A stretch of DNA of 44,842 nucleotides from assembly GCA_025965175.1 (NCBI GenBank), contig JAOPXL010000004.1, forward strand, positions 1 to 44,842. The letters run 5' to 3'. Position numbers and translations under genes: made by a program. Positions within the stretch are counted from its first letter, which is position 1, and every line of letters starts with the position of its first letter. This document shows, piece after piece, positions 3,584 to 35,065 of this stretch. Below the pieces are notes generated by a model. It had not been told where the DNA came from. It saw only the letters and a list, made by a program, of their open reading frames with translations, and made no database searches. The DNA is from Aeromicrobium sp. (GTDB lineage: Bacteria; Actinomycetota; Actinomycetes; Propionibacteriales; Nocardioidaceae).

Positions 3584-4857
3584 CAGGTGGTCCCGAGCGC
3601 GGCCGCGGCCTCGACCCCGGAGCGGCAGCCGTCCTCGTGGAAGCCCCAGCCGTGGTAGGCGCCGGCGAACACGGTCTGCTGGGTGGACAGGTCGCGCAGG
3701 CCGCCCTGGGCCGCAACGGACTCGGGCCTGTAGATCGGGTGGGTGTAGGCCATCGTCGCGACGACCGAGGTGGGGTCGATGCGGTCGGTCGCGTTGAGGG
3801 TCACGAGGAACGGCTCGGCGGACTCGATGCCCTGCAGCCGGTTCATCCAGTAGGTCACGGCCGAGTGGTCGTTGCGATCGGCGCAGCCGTCCATCCGGTA
3901 GTTCCACGCCGACCTGGCGGCGGGGGCGACCGGGAGCTGTCGCGCGTCGCGGTGCAGCACGACCTCGTTGTCGGAGTAGCCGAACGCGCCGAGCACTCGT
4001 CGCTCCTCGTCGCTCGGGTCGGTCAGCAGGGCGAGGGCGTCGTCGGCGTGGGTCGCGATGACGACCGCGTCGAACCGGTGCAGGTCACCGCGCGAGTCGA
4101 TCAGTTCGACGCCGTCGGGCTTGCGGGTGACCTGCCGGATGGCGGTCGACGCTCGGACACTGCCGCCACCGTGGTGGGCGATCGCGGCGGTGACCTTGTC
4201 GATGTAGGTGCCCGACCCGCCGACGACCGTGAACCACTGCGGGGAGCCCTTGATCGAGAGGAAGCCGTGGTGCTTGAGGAACTCGAAGAGATAGCGCGCG
4301 GGGTACGACAGCGCGGTCTCGTGCCCCGAGGACCAGACGCAGGACACGACCGGGATCGCGTAGTGCGAGACGAAGTAGTCCGAGAAGCCGTGGATGCGTA
4401 GGAAGTCGCCGTACGTCTGCGGGTCCGTGGGCGACTCCTTGCTGTCGAGCAGCGCGTGGGCGAGGCGACCGAATCTCTTGACCCCCACCAGCATCGCGAG
4501 GTAACGCGGGTCGAGCAGCCGCCGGCGCTGCGCGAAGACGCCCTTGCCGCCGCGGCCGCCGGCGTACTCCAGCCCGCACCCGTCGCAGTGGATGCTCATG
4601 CTCATCTCGGTGGGGTGGACCTCGACGTCGAGCTCGCCGAACAGTCGCCGCAGCAGGGGATAGGTCCGGTCGTTGTGGACGATGAATCCCGAGTCGACCC
4701 GGTGGGCCCGGTCCGGGTCCTGGACGGTGTGGGTGTGGGCGTGCCCGCCGACGCGATCATCCGCCTCGAACACCGTGACGTCCCAGTCCCGGCGAAGGAC
4801 GTACGCCGCGGTCAGACCAGACACACCCGAGCCGATGACGGCCACTTTCCTCTGCAT
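3580..4857 (-). CDS. FAD-dependent oxidoreductase (amine-oxidase-like, NAD(P)-binding Rossmann)
   Basis: A 425-residue flavoprotein starting MQRKVAVIGSGVSGLTAAYVLRR, with the FAD-binding GSGVSG at residues 8-13, the acidic end of the fold (VFEADDRVGGHAHT), and a C-terminal FAD segment VFAGAYHGWGFHEDGCRSG. It belongs to the amine oxidase/protoporphyrinogen oxidase-like group that accompanies DUF1365 and Cfa methyltransferases. In several bacteria such sets are linked to photo-oxidative or acid stress and to furan or methylated fatty acids, so an acyl-chain oxidation or desaturation role is plausible but inferred. A strong ribosome site is not visible upstream of the ATG; the gene starts 15 bases after the 71-residue gene and overlaps DUF1365. 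Confidence 0.87.
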   Translation of the reverse strand: MQRKVAVIGSGVSGLTAAYVLRRDWDVTVFEADDRVGGHAHTHTVQDPDRAHRVDSGFIVHNDRTYPLLRRLFGELDVEVHPTEMSMSIHCDGCGLEYAGGRGGKGVFAQRRRLLDPRYLAMLVGVKRFGRLAHALLDSKESPTDPQTYGDFLRIHGFSDYFVSHYAIPVVSCVWSSGHETALSYPARYLFEFLKHHGFLSIKGSPQWFTVVGGSGTYIDKVTAAIAHHGGGSVRASTAIRQVTRKPDGVELIDSRGDLHRFDAVVIATHADDALALLTDPSDEERRVLGAFGYSDNEVVLHRDARQLPVAPAARSAWNYRMDGCADRNDHSAVTYWMNRLQGIESAEPFLVTLNATDRIDPTSVVATMAYTHPIYRPESVAAQGGLRDLSTQQTVFAGAYHGWGFHEDGCRSGVEAAAALGTTW

Positions 4858-29424: not shown

Positions 29425-30447
29425 TCAGCCCCGCCGCGGCTGGGGGGCATCCGGCAGCGGGGGGATATAGCACCCCTCCCGCTCGGCCCGGACCGCGGCC
29501 AGCGTCCTTGTCGGCGCCTCCAGCTTGTGCAACAGGTGCTCCACGTGCGCGGCGATGGTGCGTACGGCCACGGCCAACCGGCTGGCGATCTGCTGGTTGG
29601 AGAGGCCGTCGACCAGCAGTCCCAGCACCTGGAGCTCGCGGGATGTGAGGCCTCGGCAGTCGACATCGGGTGTCACCAGGAGTGTGCCCAGCACGAAAGC
29701 CGGTGCCTCAGTCGCAGTCAGCACTGTGATGCGCACGTGACCGCTGTCGCCGGAGCCGTTGCGCGCCGGCCACATGAACGACCGGTAGACCTCGCCCGCC
29801 AAGAGATTCCCCCGGCCGACCTCCACGACTGGCGAGTTCGAGATCAAGAGCGCGTGGTCTTCGAGTCCTGGAAGCGGGCGGGCGGTGCCGTCCTGGAGCA
29901 GGACGGCACCCGCCGTGGCGCCTTGCACTATGCGCGCGGTAGCGAGCAACGAACGCACGGGGGACACACCCCGGGCCATCAGCGGCGAGAGCCGCGCGAC
30001 GCAGGCGCGCATCGAAGCCGACGGTGGCTCGCCGCTGGCGAACAACAGGTTGAGGATCCCTACGTGAAGGCCACCGGGTTCGAAGAGCCCGATGCTCAAT
30101 ACTTCCCGGAAGCCGGCCGGAATGAGGCACTCGGCCCATGTGGGCAGTTCCTCAATGGCTGCGGGGAGCTCCGCCAGGCTGACCGGCGGCTGGTTGCGGT
30201 TGAGTCCGGTCAACTGGATCTCGTGCGCAATCGTCGGCCGGTTGAGGTAGTCGATGGCGGATTGGTCCAGCCCTGTGCTGCTCACGGTCGCGTAGAGGTT
30301 CGACCGAGGATAGGTCAGAGCCAGCCATGCGGCTTGGAATGGCACGCTTCGGTTCAGCCTCTCCAAGAGGCCTTGTGCTCGTTCCGGGAGAGGAGCGGTG
30401 GAGGCAGCGATCTCGATCATCTCAGCGACGGACGAATCGTCCCGCAT
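29425..30447 (-). CDS. LuxR-family transcriptional regulator
   Basis: A 340-residue regulator. The C-terminal GerE-type helix-turn-helix reads LTSRELQVLGLLVDGLSNQQIASRLAVAVRTIAAHVEHLLHKL, near residues 262-305. The first 240 residues look like a GAF-type sensory domain (SVPFQAAWLALTYPRSNLYATVSSTGL ... LSIGLFEPGGLHVGILNLLF) with no visible receiver domain or Walker motif. The ATG at 30447 has GGAG five bases upstream. It is divergent from the dehydrogenase operon, whose promoter carries a palindrome at the position used by LuxR-type activators. A 14-base inverted repeat CTGCC-TTTT-GGCAG lies in its own upstream region (30550-30563). Confidence 0.87.
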   Translation of the reverse strand: MRDDSSVAEMIEIAASTAPLPERAQGLLERLNRSVPFQAAWLALTYPRSNLYATVSSTGLDQSAIDYLNRPTIAHEIQLTGLNRNQPPVSLAELPAAIEELPTWAECLIPAGFREVLSIGLFEPGGLHVGILNLLFASGEPPSASMRACVARLSPLMARGVSPVRSLLATARIVQGATAGAVLLQDGTARPLPGLEDHALLISNSPVVEVGRGNLLAGEVYRSFMWPARNGSGDSGHVRITVLTATEAPAFVLGTLLVTPDVDCRGLTSRELQVLGLLVDGLSNQQIASRLAVAVRTIAAHVEHLLHKLEAPTRTLAAVRAEREGCYIPPLPDAPQPRRG

Positions 30448-30676
30448 AGGGACTCCCTACGGCGATGCGAATCGGACGCGCCGGGATCTCAAAGAAGATC
30501 GGACGCTGGTGATCGGTAAAGACCCCGGCCAGCGGGTCGGCGACCGTTCCTGCCTTTTGGCAGAGCAACTTATTCTCTCGACTAGCGTACCCCGTCATGC
30601 GATCGGAGGCGATTGCACCGGCGTTCTTGCGGAGCCGGGGTGCGCCGGGCCTCGCCGCGTCGGCTCCCCGGAGAGC

Positions 30677-30725
30677 GGTATCGGCATTTCTGCCAATACC
30701 GATCTCGCGCCGCACCGCGTGTAAT
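30677..30725 (+). promoter_or_regulatory. Palindrome and promoter of the dehydrogenase/DJ-1 operon
   Basis: An operator-like palindrome ATCGGCA-TTTC-TGCCAAT (30680-30697), within a wider GGTAT...ATACC symmetry, ends 22 bases before a -10 candidate TGTAAT (30720-30725). Its centre would be near -43, the position of class II activator sites. The same sequence and spacing occur upstream of the DUF2254 gene (35020-35065). Confidence 0.6.
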
Positions 30726-30736
30726 GGAGTGGCGAG

Positions 30737-30758
30737 CCCGGATGGGCCGCCATCCGGG
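30737..30758 (+). repeat. Leader hairpin just before the dehydrogenase ribosome site
   Basis: A perfect 9-base stem CCCGGATGG/CCATCCGGG with loop GCCG ends two bases before the GAGGAGG ribosome site of the dehydrogenase gene. It should form in the mRNA leader. Confidence 0.6.
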
Positions 30759-30771
30759 ACGAGGAGGCAGC

Positions 30772-31926
30772 ATGAAGGCATTGGTGTACGACGGACCACG
30801 GCAGGTCAGCGTCAAGGAGGTACCGGACGCGCGGATCGAGCGGCCGACCGACGTCCTGGTGAGGGTCACGTCGGCGAACATCTGCGGCTCGGACCTCCAC
30901 ATGTACGAGGGTCGGACCGATTTCGAGACCGGCCGCTGGTTCGGGCACGAGAACTTGGGTCAGGTGGTCGAGGTCGGCGACGGGGTCGACAAGGTCCAGG
31001 TGGGTGAGTACGTCGTCCTGCCGTTCAACATCGCTTGCGGTCACTGCAAGAACTGCGAGCGCCAGCTCACGAACTACTGCCTGACCGCTCAGCCGGACCC
31101 GAAGATGGCCGGCGCCGCGTACGGCTTCGCCGACATGGGGCCGTGGGCCGGGGGTCAGGCCGAGCTGCTGCGCGTGCCCTGGGGTGACTTCAACTGCCTG
31201 CGTCTGGGGGAGGATGCCGAGGAGCGCCAGACCGACTACGTGATGCTCGCCGACATCTTCCCGACCGGCTACCACGCCACCGAGATGGCCGGCGTGAAGC
31301 CCGGCGACCAGACGGTCATCTACGGTGCCGGCCCGGTAGGGCTGATGGCCGCCCTCTCGGCCACCATCCGGGGGGCGAGCAAGGTGATGGTGGTCGACCG
31401 GCACCCCGACCGGCTGCGGCTGGCGGAGTCGATCGGCGCGATCGCGATCGACGACTCGAAGGTCGATCCGGTGCAGGTCGTTCTTGACCAGACGATGGGG
31501 CTGGGCGCGGACAACGGCTGCGAGTGCGTCGGTTATCAGGCGCACGAGCCCGACGGCCAGGAGCGGGCCAACCTGACGATGAACCGGTTGGTCGCCTCGG
31601 TGCGCTTCACCGGGCAGATCGGGTGCGTCGGCGTCTTCGTGCCCGAGGACCCCGGGGGCCGCGACGAGCTGGCGAAGCAGGGCAAGCTCGCCTTCGACTT
31701 CGGCATGTTCTGGTTCAAGGGTCAGCACCTCGGCAGCGGCCAGGCCCCGGTCAAGAAGTACAACCGGCAGCTGCGCGACCTGATCGCCGGGGGCAAGGCC
31801 GAGCCGTCGTTCATCGTCAGCCACGAGCTGCCGCTGGGCCAGGGACCGGAGGCCTATGAGCACTTTGACAACCGCGACGACGGTTGGACGAAGGTCGTCC
31901 TGCACCCGGCGATGGCTGGGAGCTGA
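30772..31926 (+). CDS. Zinc-dependent alcohol dehydrogenase (glutathione-independent formaldehyde dehydrogenase-like)
   Basis: A 384-residue medium-chain zinc dehydrogenase. Catalytic zinc ligands C38 and H59-E60 (ICGSDLHMYEG, FGHE) and the structural zinc cysteines C89, C92, C95 and C103 are intact; the NAD-binding fold shows VIYGAGPVGLMA. The long insertion and the VPWGDFNCLRLGEDAEERQTDYVMLADIFPTGYHATEMAGV region place it with glutathione-independent formaldehyde dehydrogenases rather than simple alcohol dehydrogenases. The substrate is an aldehyde or alcohol; formaldehyde is inferred. The gene leads an operon with a DJ-1 protein, 1 base downstream, and two damaged genes. Confidence 0.9.
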   Translation: MKALVYDGPRQVSVKEVPDARIERPTDVLVRVTSANICGSDLHMYEGRTDFETGRWFGHENLGQVVEVGDGVDKVQVGEYVVLPFNIACGHCKNCERQLTNYCLTAQPDPKMAGAAYGFADMGPWAGGQAELLRVPWGDFNCLRLGEDAEERQTDYVMLADIFPTGYHATEMAGVKPGDQTVIYGAGPVGLMAALSATIRGASKVMVVDRHPDRLRLAESIGAIAIDDSKVDPVQVVLDQTMGLGADNGCECVGYQAHEPDGQERANLTMNRLVASVRFTGQIGCVGVFVPEDPGGRDELAKQGKLAFDFGMFWFKGQHLGSGQAPVKKYNRQLRDLIAGGKAEPSFIVSHELPLGQGPEAYEHFDNRDDGWTKVVLHPAMAGS

Positions 31927-31927
31927 C

Positions 31928-32503
31928 ATGGCCGGGGAGCTGAACGGAAGGCGGGTTGCGATCCTGGCCGCCGACGGCGTGGAGCGCGTGGAGCTGGAGC
32001 AGCCTCGCCAAGCCCTCGAGGACGCCGGTGCCCGCACAGACGTCGTCTCCATCAAGAGCGGCGAGATCCTGGCGCGCAACCAGGACCTGGAGGACGCCGG
32101 GACCTTCGGCGTCGACCGGCTCGTCGGGGACGCCTCGATCGATGACTACGACGCCCTGCTGCTGCCTGGGGGGACGGTGAACCCGGACAAGCTGCGGATG
32201 GAACCTGCCGCCGTGCGGTTCGTCCGGGACTTCGTGCAGTCGGGCAAGCCGGTCGCCTCGATCTGCCACGGCCCGTGGAGCTTCGTCGAGGCCGACGTCG
32301 CGCGCGGCCGCCGGCTGACCTCGTGGCCGAGCGTGCGCACCGACCTGCGCAACGCCGGGGCGGAGGTGGTCGACGAGCAGGTCGTCACCGACGGCAACAT
32401 CACGACCAGCCGGTCACCCGACGACCTGCCGGCGTTCTGCGAGCGCATCGTGCAGGAGTTCGCCGGCGCCCCTCAGTCCGCCGGTGTGGGCGGTGGCTCG
32501 TGA
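31928..32503 (+). CDS. DJ-1/PfpI family protein
   Basis: A 191-residue PfpI/YhbO-type protein. The nucleophile elbow SICHGPWSF gives the catalytic cysteine C113 followed by His114, and E22 (VERVELEQP) is the conserved glutamate that lowers its pKa. PGGTVNPDKLRM is the usual glycine loop. Members act as stress proteins, deglycases or glyoxalase-like enzymes that handle reactive aldehydes, which fits co-transcription with the dehydrogenase. It starts 1 base after the dehydrogenase stop. The tail APQSAGVGGGS is short and flexible. Confidence 0.92.
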   Translation: MAGELNGRRVAILAADGVERVELEQPRQALEDAGARTDVVSIKSGEILARNQDLEDAGTFGVDRLVGDASIDDYDALLLPGGTVNPDKLRMEPAAVRFVRDFVQSGKPVASICHGPWSFVEADVARGRRLTSWPSVRTDLRNAGAEVVDEQVVTDGNITTSRSPDDLPAFCERIVQEFAGAPQSAGVGGGS

Positions 32504-32999
32504 CGAGTGCGCCGGGGAGCGTGGCGTCGCTGGCCGCCCGGGCGGTGGCACCGTCGTCCGCCGAGTCCGCTCGGTCTTCGAGCACGGGAGTGGCCCCGGC
32601 GCGGCGAGCGCTCCGGCGTCCGGATGGCTGGTGGTGAGCACCTACCGCGAGTCGACTCAGATCGACGCCACCTCGCTGCCGGCGCCGCTGGCCGCGTACG
32701 GCGACCGCATCGAGACACGGATCCGCCCGGCGCCCGGCGCCCGGCGCCGGGCGGCAAGGGCACCGAGCTGGCCGCGCGGTTGACCCAGCGGTCCTCGGGG
32801 AGCGCCTCCGGTCCAGCGAGGCAGACGGGCAGCGATCCGCAGGGCGACTTGCGCTCCGCGCTGCGCAAGGCCAAGCAGCTGATCGAGGTCGGCGAGGTGC
32901 TGGCGGTCGACCCCGCCCCGCACGGCAAGCGGAACGCCACGCCGGCCGGCGCGGCGCTGGAGGCGGCCACGAAGCGGGCGCCCAAGGGGGGTGCTGTGA
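32484..32999 (+). pseudogene. Frameshifted gene of an uncharacterised actinobacterial family
   Basis: No single frame is open, but the pieces join into one protein. Frame 3 gives GWLVVSTYRESTQIDATSLPAPLAAYGDRIETRIRPAPG, and after a tandem repeat (32726-32746) another frame gives GGKGTELAARL ... SDPQGDLRSALRKAKQLIEVGEVLAVDPAPHGKRNATPAGAALEAATKRAP. Two extra copies of a 7-base unit (+14) and a G-run one base too long (5 to 6 G before TGCTGTGA, +1) explain the breaks; undoing both restores a frame ending in TGA that overlaps the next gene's GTG. From memory, this family often sits beside zinc dehydrogenases. Function unknown. Start uncertain (GTG at 32484 overlaps the DJ-1 gene). Confidence 0.7.
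32726..32746 (+). repeat. Three tandem copies of CCCGGCG in a pseudogene
   Basis: CCCGGCG is repeated three times. With one copy the surrounding reading frame would be IRPAPGGKGTEL, matching the expected protein; the two extra copies shift it by +2. This is a clear slipped-strand expansion. Confidence 0.85.
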
Positions 33000-33483
33000 A
33001 GGCGGTGACCTGCGGGGCGTCAACGAGGTCGGGGTGGAGGACGTCCCGGAGCCGAAGATGCTCAACGACCACGACATCATGCTCGAGGTCAGCCTGTCGG
33101 TGACCTGCGGCTCGGACCTGCACCTGCTGGGCGGCTACATTCCCGCGATGCGCGCCGGTGACGTGCTTGGACACGCGTTCATGGGCACGGTGGCCGAGGT
33201 GGGCAAGAACGTCACGAAGCACAAGATCGGCGACCGGGTCGTGGTGGTCTCGTTCATCGGCTGTGGGCAGTGCTGGTACTGCCGGCAGGGGCTGTGGTCG
33301 CTGTGCGACAACGGCAACCCCAACCCGGGGATCACCGAGGCGCTGTGGGGTCAGGGGATCGGCGGCTGCTGCGGGGTACTCCCACGCGTTGGGCGGCTGG
33401 GCGGGCAGTCACGCCCCCTACATCCGTGCCCTACGCCGATCAGGGGGCGTTCGCGATCCCGGATGGCGTCTCCGACGAGGGGG
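32996..33483 (+). pseudogene. Truncated, frameshifted second zinc alcohol dehydrogenase
   Basis: The N-terminal 160 or so residues of a medium-chain zinc dehydrogenase, paralogous to the intact gene at 30772. Readable: VKAVTC, then a 1-base loss, GVNEVGVEDVPEPKMLNDHDIMLEVSLSVTCGSDLHLLGGYIPAMRAGDVLGHAFMGTVAEVGK and GCGQCWYCRQGLWSLCDNGNP (zinc cysteines still present). A further shift near 33375 gives YSHALGGWAGSHAPYIR, and another near 33427 gives VPYADQGAFAIPDGVSDE, after which similarity stops. The NAD-binding half is missing; the DUF2254 gene on the other strand ends 25 bases on. The GTG overlaps the upstream pseudogene stop. Confidence 0.82.
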
Positions 33484-33507
33484 GGGCCGGCCCATCGAAG
33501 CAGCCCA

Positions 33508-34854
33508 CTACCCCTGCGTGCGTGCGGGCCGGCCATCGGCGTCCGGCGTGCCGCTGTCCAGGCGCACGGCGGTGGTGACGTCGGCTCCGGACCCGATGCC
33601 CTCGGAGTCGGGCGTGAGGGCGGCGACGATGTCCTCCTCGTCCTCGTAGGCCCGATGGACGGCGGCGGTCAGCAGCCGCAGCTGGCGGTCGAGCGGGGCC
33701 TGTCGGTCGGGCGGGGCGACGCTCTTGAGGTCCTGCAGCGCCCCGGACAGGCGACGGGTCACTTGTGGCGAGGCCGCGCCGGCCAGCCGAATCTCGTCGA
33801 ACGCAAGTCGCACGTAGCCGTCCCAAGACAGCGTGCGCTCGACCAGACGGACCACCCCGTCCTCGTCCGGGTGCTCGCCTGCGGGGAGCGGGCGGGTTGC
33901 GAGCTGGCGCAGCAGGTCGTGCAGCCGGTGCAGCGCCTGCAGGGTCGTTGTCGGGTCGTCGAACGGCTGAGCGATCGACCGCTCGGCGATGTCAACCAGC
34001 TTCCGCAGCCCGTAGGGAGGGTCCTCCGTGTGCACGCGCTCGGGGCCCACGAGAACCAGTCGCGCGATCTCCTCGACCCGCAGCCGCGTGGCCGGCCCGG
34101 CGACGTCCGCCGCCCGTCGGGGGCCGGGGTGCACGCGGAACAACGGTGCCCCGCCCGACACGAAGTCGCCGACGACGGGCACCAGCTCGAGGACGCAGTC
34201 AGCGCGGCGCGCGGCGGCGACGAGCCCGGAGCGGTCGACCCGGACGACATTCCCCGGCTCCTGCGCGGTTATCACGTCGGGGTCGGCGTCCGGGAGGGGC
34301 GCCGCGGGGAAGGACGACTCGATGAGGTCGCGGGTGCGGTCGCCGACCAGGTCGATCAGCCCAGTCGCCCGCATGGTCTGCCCGGAGTGGTGTACGAAGA
34401 CGATCAACGTCACGAGGCTGGCGAACATCAACAGGTAGGCCAGCAGCACCGACAGGCCGGGAACGGTGCCGGTGTCCGAACCGCGGAGCTCGCGGAGAGT
34501 GAGCACGGCGACGACGAACGTCCCCGCGAACAGGCCGATCGCCAGCTGGCTGAACCGGTCTGACAGCAGCGCGCCCACGATCCGCGGGGAGAACTGCCCC
34601 ATCGCCAGCTGCACCACCACCAGCGTCACGGTGAGCACGAGGCTGATCAGCGAGGCCATCGCGGTGGCGAACACCGACAGGCTCGTCTGCACGCCGCTGG
34701 GCGTTCCCGTCACGCTCTGGGGGACCAGGGTGTAGCCCGACCGGCGGTCGAGCCAGAGCGCGCCGATGACGATCAGCACGCCGGCCAGGACGCACAGCAG
34801 GGGAATCAGCCACAGGCTGGTCCGTAAGGTGTGCACGAGGCGGGTGAGGCGCAT
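33508..34854 (-). CDS. DUF2254 family membrane protein
   Basis: A 448-residue protein with four membrane helices in the first 170 residues (LWLIPLLCVLAGVLIVIGALWL; SVFATAMASLISLVLTVTLVVVQLAMGQFSPRIVGALL; LAIGLFAGTFVVAVLTL; GLSVLLAYLLMFASLVTLIVFVHHSG) and a large soluble C-terminal part. QFSPRIVGALLSDRFSQLAIGLF and VGDFVSGGAPLFRV are typical of DUF2254, whose function is unknown. The ATG at 34854 follows AAGGGGGG. It has its own promoter with a palindrome matching that of the dehydrogenase operon, so the two are probably co-regulated although transcribed toward each other. Confidence 0.87.
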   Translation of the reverse strand: MRLTRLVHTLRTSLWLIPLLCVLAGVLIVIGALWLDRRSGYTLVPQSVTGTPSGVQTSLSVFATAMASLISLVLTVTLVVVQLAMGQFSPRIVGALLSDRFSQLAIGLFAGTFVVAVLTLRELRGSDTGTVPGLSVLLAYLLMFASLVTLIVFVHHSGQTMRATGLIDLVGDRTRDLIESSFPAAPLPDADPDVITAQEPGNVVRVDRSGLVAAARRADCVLELVPVVGDFVSGGAPLFRVHPGPRRAADVAGPATRLRVEEIARLVLVGPERVHTEDPPYGLRKLVDIAERSIAQPFDDPTTTLQALHRLHDLLRQLATRPLPAGEHPDEDGVVRLVERTLSWDGYVRLAFDEIRLAGAASPQVTRRLSGALQDLKSVAPPDRQAPLDRQLRLLTAAVHRAYEDEEDIVAALTPDSEGIGSGADVTTAVRLDSGTPDADGRPARTQG

Positions 34855-35019
34855 CGGGCCCCCCTTTAGGGCTCGGTCCGGGGGCCGGTGGGTGTGATCG
34901 GGAGGGCGTGGTCTCCGTCGTGCCGGCTGCCGGAGTCCGACGTCCTCCACGTCTTCGGCCCGCCGCGGCCTGCACGACCCGGCAGTGATGCAGTCATCGT
35001 TCAGCGATGGCCTGAACCC
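34855..35019 (-). other. Leader region of the DUF2254 gene
   Basis: About 160 bases between the DUF2254 promoter and its start codon. I see no gene in it; a long untranslated leader is likely if the -10 at 35020-35025 is right. Confidence 0.4.
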
Positions 35020-35065
35020 ACCATATCGAGCCCGGGAGACGCCGCCTATCGGCAGATCTGCCGAT
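35020..35065 (-). promoter_or_regulatory. Palindrome and promoter of the DUF2254 gene
   Basis: A perfect 18-base palindrome ATCGGCAGATCTGCCGAT (35048-35065) lies exactly 22 bases upstream of a -10 candidate TATGGT (35020-35025, minus strand). The sequence and spacing match the site before the dehydrogenase gene at 30680-30725; both palindromes are also followed on the plus strand by a shared GATCTCGCGC. Confidence 0.65.

Follow-up and report, generated by a model that had tools for sequence, protein, structure and literature searches.

Within a 44,842-nucleotide stretch of Aeromicrobium sp. DNA (contig JAOPXL010000004.1, positions 1 to 44,842, called the window here), two matching 18-bp palindromes stand upstream of a dehydrogenase operon and of a gene for a DUF2254 membrane protein, and a LuxR-type regulator gene lies beside the operon. 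Our analysis makes it probable that both palindromes are operators of one regulon, bound by the adjacent LuxR-type activator at class-II-like promoters. Conservation extends to the palindrome (ATCGGCAnnTCTGCCGAT, hereafter the box), to the distance between it and a -10-like element, to the main genes that it precedes and to its occurrence together with the LuxR gene. The arrangement is probably a conserved switch found in several actinobacterial groups, with the LuxR-type regulator turning on stress-related genes. From the sequences we infer binding and activation by this LuxR protein, and a role of the surrounding gene island in defence against chemical or protein damage.

Box 1 (ATCGGCATTTCTGCCAAT, positions 30680-30697, plus strand) is one base short of a perfect palindrome and lies upstream of the dehydrogenase operon. 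Box 2 (ATCGGCAGATCTGCCGAT, 35048-35065, minus strand) is perfect and lies 194 nucleotides (nt) upstream of the DUF2254 start codon. After exactly 22 nt each palindrome is followed by a TNNNNT element, TGTAAT for box 1 (30720-30725, plus strand) and TATGGT for box 2 (35020-35025, minus strand). The original prediction, made from the letters of the window, had given these palindromes, the perfection of the second and both 22-base spacers, and all of them are exact. We found that the pattern ATCGGCA-N4-TGCCNAT matches only boxes 1 and 2 in the whole draft genome to which the window belongs (G000; 2,961,451 bases, 87.7% complete), where about 0.04 matches per genome are expected by a hand estimate that assumes 70% G+C.

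Both palindromes are followed by the 10-mer GATCTCGCGC, which had been taken as a hint of common origin and which would fit an account in which the two arose by mobility or duplication of a single sequence, or by chance. The 10-mer begins 3 nt past box 1, yet overlaps the final 3 bases of box 2, and it occurs at four places on the plus strand of the window (11398, 30701, 35063 and 39632). Because it is out of register and present four times, it carries no information on origin and is itself attributable to chance, and we rejected a common origin on that basis. In the regions inspected upstream of the dehydrogenase in relatives, the 10-mer is not retained. Each box, in contrast, has counterparts before the same gene family in other genera, a conservation that contradicts the copy-or-chance account and leaves it extremely improbable.

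To follow the box through relatives, we searched 197 genomes of the same family with the window dehydrogenase as the protein query. This search returned 13 full-length dehydrogenases of at least 90% identity (the window's included), seven of 74-77%, and in G171 a 91% fragment at a contig end, with a box on the contig that holds the gene start. The ATCGGCAnnTCTGCCGAT palindrome precedes 14 of these 20 full-length genes, namely the 13 at 90% or more and a 75% one in G107. In the 14 upstream regions examined (the window and 13 relatives), all 14 match the box at 14-16 of 16 consensus bases, and a match of 14/16 was reached in 2 of 7,000 shuffled upstream regions. No box precedes the six remaining 74-77% genes (G164, G106, G160, G154, G004 and G173), and the best match among 11 homologues in LuxR-less genomes, these six and five at 54-59%, is 9-10 of 16. 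Conservation across relatives indicates that the window pair is a real regulatory site and supports the palindrome as a conserved, operator-like element. The motif scan of the genome and its relatives that had been proposed as a check finds the box upstream of the same gene families.

Motif searches that demanded the exact pattern, or allowed a single mismatch, proved noisy, with TCGGCANNTSTGCCGA present in 38 of the 197 family genomes, most of them without the LuxR gene, and we therefore used two sequence models, R1 and R2. Model R2 was built from 40 sites and run on 48 genomes. It matched all 32 genomes chosen for box or LuxR gene at E<=7.6e-6, matches that are not independent since most of these genomes supplied training sites. 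Of 16 LuxR-negative family genomes, 12 gave nothing at E<=0.05, and the others gave values of 6.5e-4 (G173), 2.2e-3, 5.0e-3 and 0.034. In the window's own genome, only the two known palindromes pass.

The LuxR gene follows the box closely. An orthologue (E<1e-70) is present in 14 of the 197 family genomes, alongside three weak matches of 32-33%. A boxed dehydrogenase occurs in 15 family genomes, which include every one of these 14; the six genomes whose 74-77% dehydrogenase is unboxed yielded no LuxR gene. When 84,980 species genomes were scanned with the box plus a -10 pattern, 33 records matched, 22 actinobacterial and 11 others. The box precedes the dehydrogenase in 17 of the 22 actinobacterial records and other genes in five (L183, L186, L197, L200 and L207). 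The LuxR protein (E<=1e-15) was detected in 21 of the 22 actinobacterial genomes, two of the matches being partial or split (G215, G210) and the exception being the Aeromicrobium metagenome-assembled genome G200. It was detected in 0 of the 11 others, which we regard as chance matches and in which none of the query genes was found. Five of the 22 records (L179, L180, L185, L187 and L204) apparently also belong to the family sample, so these counts are not independent of the family counts. Across a class-wide sample of 394 genomes, the box (E<=1e-3) is present in 11, the LuxR gene (E<=1e-30) in 13 and both in seven (Fisher p=1.9e-9; p=1.5e-5 when three genomes of the window's own family are left out). 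The four box-only genomes of this sample have weak sites, with E of 1.4e-4 to 7.2e-4. Among its LuxR-only genomes, G537 has a 24.6-bit site before the dehydrogenase, and G278 and G487 have weak sites (17.5 and 15.4 bits). Genome comparison thus bears out the expectation that LuxR gene and box go together across genera and orders.

At the margins of these searches, G457 carries a LuxR gene of 33% identity with a 29-bit box just upstream of that gene, and three of four loci with distant LuxR proteins of 30-32% (L135-L138) have no box at 11 bits, with two weak sites in L137. We attribute to chance the weak sites in the LuxR-negative L172, L175, L322 and L323, where none of the target genes was seen; L173 has no site at 12 bits. 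Two further LuxR-negative genomes have a 22.5-bit site in common (L324:7016-7033 and L325:6931-6948) before homologous genes, which by eye look TrkA-like.

The distance from box to -10-like element is likewise conserved. Upstream of the dehydrogenase in relatives, a TGnAAT-like element stands 22-24 nt after the box. We collected 75 site readings of at least 20 bits that lie no more than 350 nt from a predicted gene start (the two strands of one palindrome may both count), of which 54 do not match the box-plus--10 scan pattern and so were not chosen by their -10. Among these 54, 32 have a T....T hexamer that starts 22 or 23 nt past the box, whereas other pairs of offsets average 1.8 and reach 6 at most. 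The spacing is kept in 29 of 30 genomes at the dehydrogenase and in seven of eight at DUF2254, so that the fixed spacing first noticed in the window extends to both kinds of promoter. The element has the form TG(C/T)AAT(G/C)G over 53 promoters with this spacing, some of which had been selected with a pattern of this sort. We saw no -35 hexamer beyond chance in these 53, a best TTGACA match of 4 being reached in 4 of them, against 4.9 after shuffling.

The lack of a -35 hexamer and the conserved spacing suit an activator-dependent promoter with the box centred, by arithmetic, near -42. A site over the -35 region can also serve repression, and the sign of the effect is unreadable from sequence, so the LuxR protein might instead bind the box and repress by blocking that region. 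We regard this as quite unlikely, given that there is no -35 hexamer beyond chance and that the constant 22-23 nt to the -10-like element suits an activator.

Our data suggest the following model. A dimer of the adjacent LuxR-type protein, which would combine a GAF-like sensor with a GerE helix-turn-helix (HTH) domain, binds the 18-bp box. At the promoters of the dehydrogenase and of DUF2254, the box ends 22-23 nt before a TNNNAT-like -10, which would place its centre over the position of the -35 hexamer, and the bound protein would recruit RNA polymerase there in class II fashion. The predicted targets form a stress island, comprising a formaldehyde-dehydrogenase-like enzyme with a DJ-1 protein, often joined by a second dehydrogenase and a 162-residue protein. 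Further targets would be DUF2254, a third dehydrogenase, another DJ-1 protein and, in single lineages, other genes.

Counted by genome, the box precedes the dehydrogenase in 30, DUF2254 in eight, the third dehydrogenase in seven and the second DJ-1 gene in four. Glycosyltransferase, LuxR, 162-residue protein and SRPBCC genes are boxed in two genomes each. Genes for DnaK, a MEDS-LuxR protein ahead of a dnaK operon, a molybdopterin protein, cytochrome bd, DUF1931, DUF2267 and DUF308 are boxed in single genomes, and these single-genome targets may be chance. In 10 genomes, sites stand before other genes. As the loci were fetched for boxes or island genes, none of these counts is a genome-wide sample. 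A DUF2254 protein of at least 55% identity is encoded in three of 15 family genomes (the 14 with LuxR and G087), and its gene is boxed in all three. In G123, the boxed DUF2254 gene lies on contig C9 and the dehydrogenase cluster on C3. The pairing of dehydrogenase and DUF2254 sites proposed for the window therefore holds elsewhere, once with the two unlinked. G164 lacks the LuxR gene but has a similar cluster with a 54% DUF2254 protein, and in the 20 kilobases (kb) of this locus we detected no site at 10 bits. Taken together, the conserved site, the LuxR co-occurrence and the recurrence at DUF2254 partly support the regulon proposed in the original prediction; its label of aldehyde stress is too narrow, because the dehydrogenase falls under the cut-off of the formaldehyde dehydrogenase model TIGR02819 and other kinds of gene are boxed.

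Several observations weigh against a regulon bound by the adjacent LuxR protein. The complete, one-contig genome G087 has a boxed dehydrogenase and no LuxR orthologue, a profile search returning only HTH-region matches, and the drafts G062 and G200 likewise have a box without an orthologue; the only box that stands directly before dnaK belongs to G062. Boxes in genomes lacking the LuxR gene had been named at the outset as a result that would refute the idea, and they exist in these three genomes. Six of the 13 LuxR-bearing genomes of the class-wide sample have no box at E<=1e-3, and three of these (G502, G465 and G480) have no site at 15 bits, though the gene cluster of G502 is complete. Within 12 kb of the LuxR pieces of 40-52% identity at G116:C40 there is no box, and no site at 12 bits was seen for the distant DUF2254 proteins of G087 (33%) and G184 (28%). 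In most genomes LuxR gene, box and dehydrogenase lie in one cluster, so linkage can mimic co-occurrence. As to the promoters, the spacing is kept in two of seven genomes before the third dehydrogenase and in neither of two before the glycosyltransferase, and a -10 rarely has G at position 2. The islands also encode HTH-less paralogues of the LuxR protein, described below, which lie outside this reading.

Some of these points would fit a box that serves as the operator of another regulator (of TetR, LacI or other HTH type, or another LuxR protein), with the adjacent LuxR protein a mere member of the island. The three box-bearing genomes without an orthologue are what this account would predict, a MEDS-LuxR gene lies behind a box in G116, and LysR-type genes lie near some boxes. 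Among the regulators noticed, which were not all tabulated, no other family shows a constancy comparable to that of the LuxR gene, which accompanies the box in 21 of the 22 genomes of the species scan and in 14 of the 15 of the family sample. The LuxR-type regulator TraR, moreover, uses an 18-bp inverted repeat over the -35 region, as described in PMC3907764. We judge another regulator to be an improbable binder, though less so than repression by the LuxR protein, and continue to favour activation by the adjacent LuxR-type protein.

This regulator (340 residues; 29425-30447, minus strand) is the divergent neighbour of the dehydrogenase operon and matches Pfam GerE at E=2.9e-15. The GerE helix-turn-helix spans residues 267-320 (56 bits, cut-off 23.5), matches DevR structures, and is present in 26 of 26 relatives of the regulator (set A6). 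We found no other Pfam domain in the protein at E<=0.001, and in particular no receiver domain of NarL/DevR type; no autoinducer-binding domain scored above cut-off (TIGR03541, 19 versus 215.6). An AlphaFold model from 12 sequences (mean pLDDT 85) predicts mixed alpha/beta folds before the HTH. Among the 50 Foldseek matches listed, query TM-scores are low (0.27-0.37) and most are phytochrome PAS-GAF-PHY structures, with CviR, SdiA and VqmA also present. GAF_2 matches five and GAF three of the 26 relatives at E<=0.01. From these results we infer that the sensor region may be GAF-like, perhaps with two domains.

Several islands encode sister proteins of 34-38% identity that align with the activator over its full length (hhalign probability 100) and have a degenerate HTH, GerE matching 0 of 7 versus 26 of 26 activators. 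These HTH-less paralogues lie at L259:14035-15060, L260:10254-11261, L261:15156-16151, L269:15039-16055, L271:11999-13039 and L072:6120-7106 (all minus strand) and at L263:1595-2611 (plus strand). They are candidate non-DNA-binding partners of the activator, a role that we offer as a guess by analogy. Some LuxR genes are split over two frames (L073:8726-9723, L261:8522-9531 and L134:1228-2975), through either sequencing errors or decay of the regulator. In G107, a second LuxR gene (44%) is flanked by variant palindromes at L132:1360-1377 and 4183-4200, one preceding a COX1 gene and the other a glycosyltransferase gene.

The remaining genes of the window island are those of the original prediction, which had described an adjacent LuxR gene, a dehydrogenase, a DJ-1 protein and DUF2254. 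The first gene of the operon (384 residues; 30772-31926, plus strand) encodes a formaldehyde-dehydrogenase-like zinc-dehydrogenase with Pfam ADH_N and ADH_zinc_N domains. It scores 316 bits against TIGR02819, the equivalog model of glutathione-independent formaldehyde dehydrogenase (cut-off 636.95), and its nearest solved structure is 4jlw, an enzyme of that kind; by sequence it appears to be a relative of this enzyme and not an equivalog member. The DJ-1/PfpI protein that follows (191 residues; 31928-32503, plus strand; Pfam DJ-1_PfpI E=1.7e-51) falls within the DJ-1/PfpI/YhbO subfamily TIGR01382 at 156.8 bits, above the 139.05 cut-off. Behind it lies a broken operon tail (32544-33479, plus strand), where tblastn recovers a remnant of the 162-residue protein gene (32544-32992) and one of the second dehydrogenase gene (33013-33479), each in two pieces. 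L073, L193 (cut at its end) and L198 carry unbroken versions of both. Convergent to the operon is the DUF2254 gene (448 residues; 33508-34854, minus strand; Pfam E=4.3e-97), at 325.6 bits against a gathering score of 28.8. A GTACCC string is repeated upstream of the box, near 30587 in the window and in the dehydrogenase upstream regions of L005, L006, L007, L008, L009, L011 and L014. Reversed, it reads GGGTAC and resembles an actinobacterial stress-sigma -10, which would here face the divergent gene.

There are hints that the island has been transferred horizontally. At fourfold sites, the dehydrogenase of Geodermatophilus sabuli (L210:2004-3155) compares with that of the window (30772-31923) at 0.77, the dehydrogenases of two congeners at 0.74 and 0.62, and GlnA within the genus at 0.61. 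The Geodermatophilus enzyme is thus no more distant from the window's than those of the two congeners, and closer than GlnA is within the genus, which hints at transfer. A broader picture, which we put forward tentatively and hold to be possible rather than probable, is a horizontally moving stress island ranging from Nocardioidaceae through Geodermatophilus and Blastococcus to Curtobacterium. It would be switched by a box-binding one-component activator with a GAF-like sensor and tuned by a sensor-keeping, HTH-less paralogue, as anti-activator or heterodimer partner.

The set of regulator, box and targets is conserved in Geodermatophilus and Blastococcus, among others, and members of these two genera are desiccation- and radiation-tolerant. 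The set can now be tested for DUF2254, the 162-residue protein and the formaldehyde-dehydrogenase-like enzymes, whose roles are unassigned, and if the regulator is confirmed, the box could serve to trace the remaining regulon members and the signal. The original prediction had known of no description of such a system. We likewise found none in open-access titles and abstract openings, a scope outside which most subscription papers and all bioRxiv preprints fall. A LuxR-type activator with an inverted-repeat box is of a known kind; the present system, as judged from sequence, appears to be widespread in actinobacteria and apparently undescribed.

Among known systems, we compared the box with the tra box of TraR, ATGTGCAGATCTGCACAT, which has 14 of 18 bases in common with box 2. 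TraR differs from the present regulator in sensing an acyl-homoserine lactone and controlling conjugation; here the sensor is of another type, the hosts are actinobacteria and the targets are of stress type. According to PMC3907764, TraR of Agrobacterium Ti plasmids also binds an 18-bp inverted-repeat operator, its class II promoters have the box ~45 nt upstream of the start and partly over the -35 element (the box described here would be centred near -42), and one class II region can serve divergent operons. The HTH-less paralogues have a precedent in Cereibacter sphaeroides, where the LuxR regulator CerM is antagonised by CerN, an HTH-less LuxR homologue (PMC11655674). CerN works with an acyl-homoserine lactone, whereas a partner role in these islands is a guess. 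Finally, the actinobacterial dormancy regulons of DevR/DosR and OsdR, as presented in PMC5069765, resemble this system in having a GerE-type regulator, a palindromic operator and a regulon of stress genes that surround the regulator gene. OsdR belongs to the response regulators and has the consensus AGGGCCGATCGGCCCT, whereas the regulator described here has no Pfam receiver domain and would act through the box ATCGGCAnnTCTGCCGAT.

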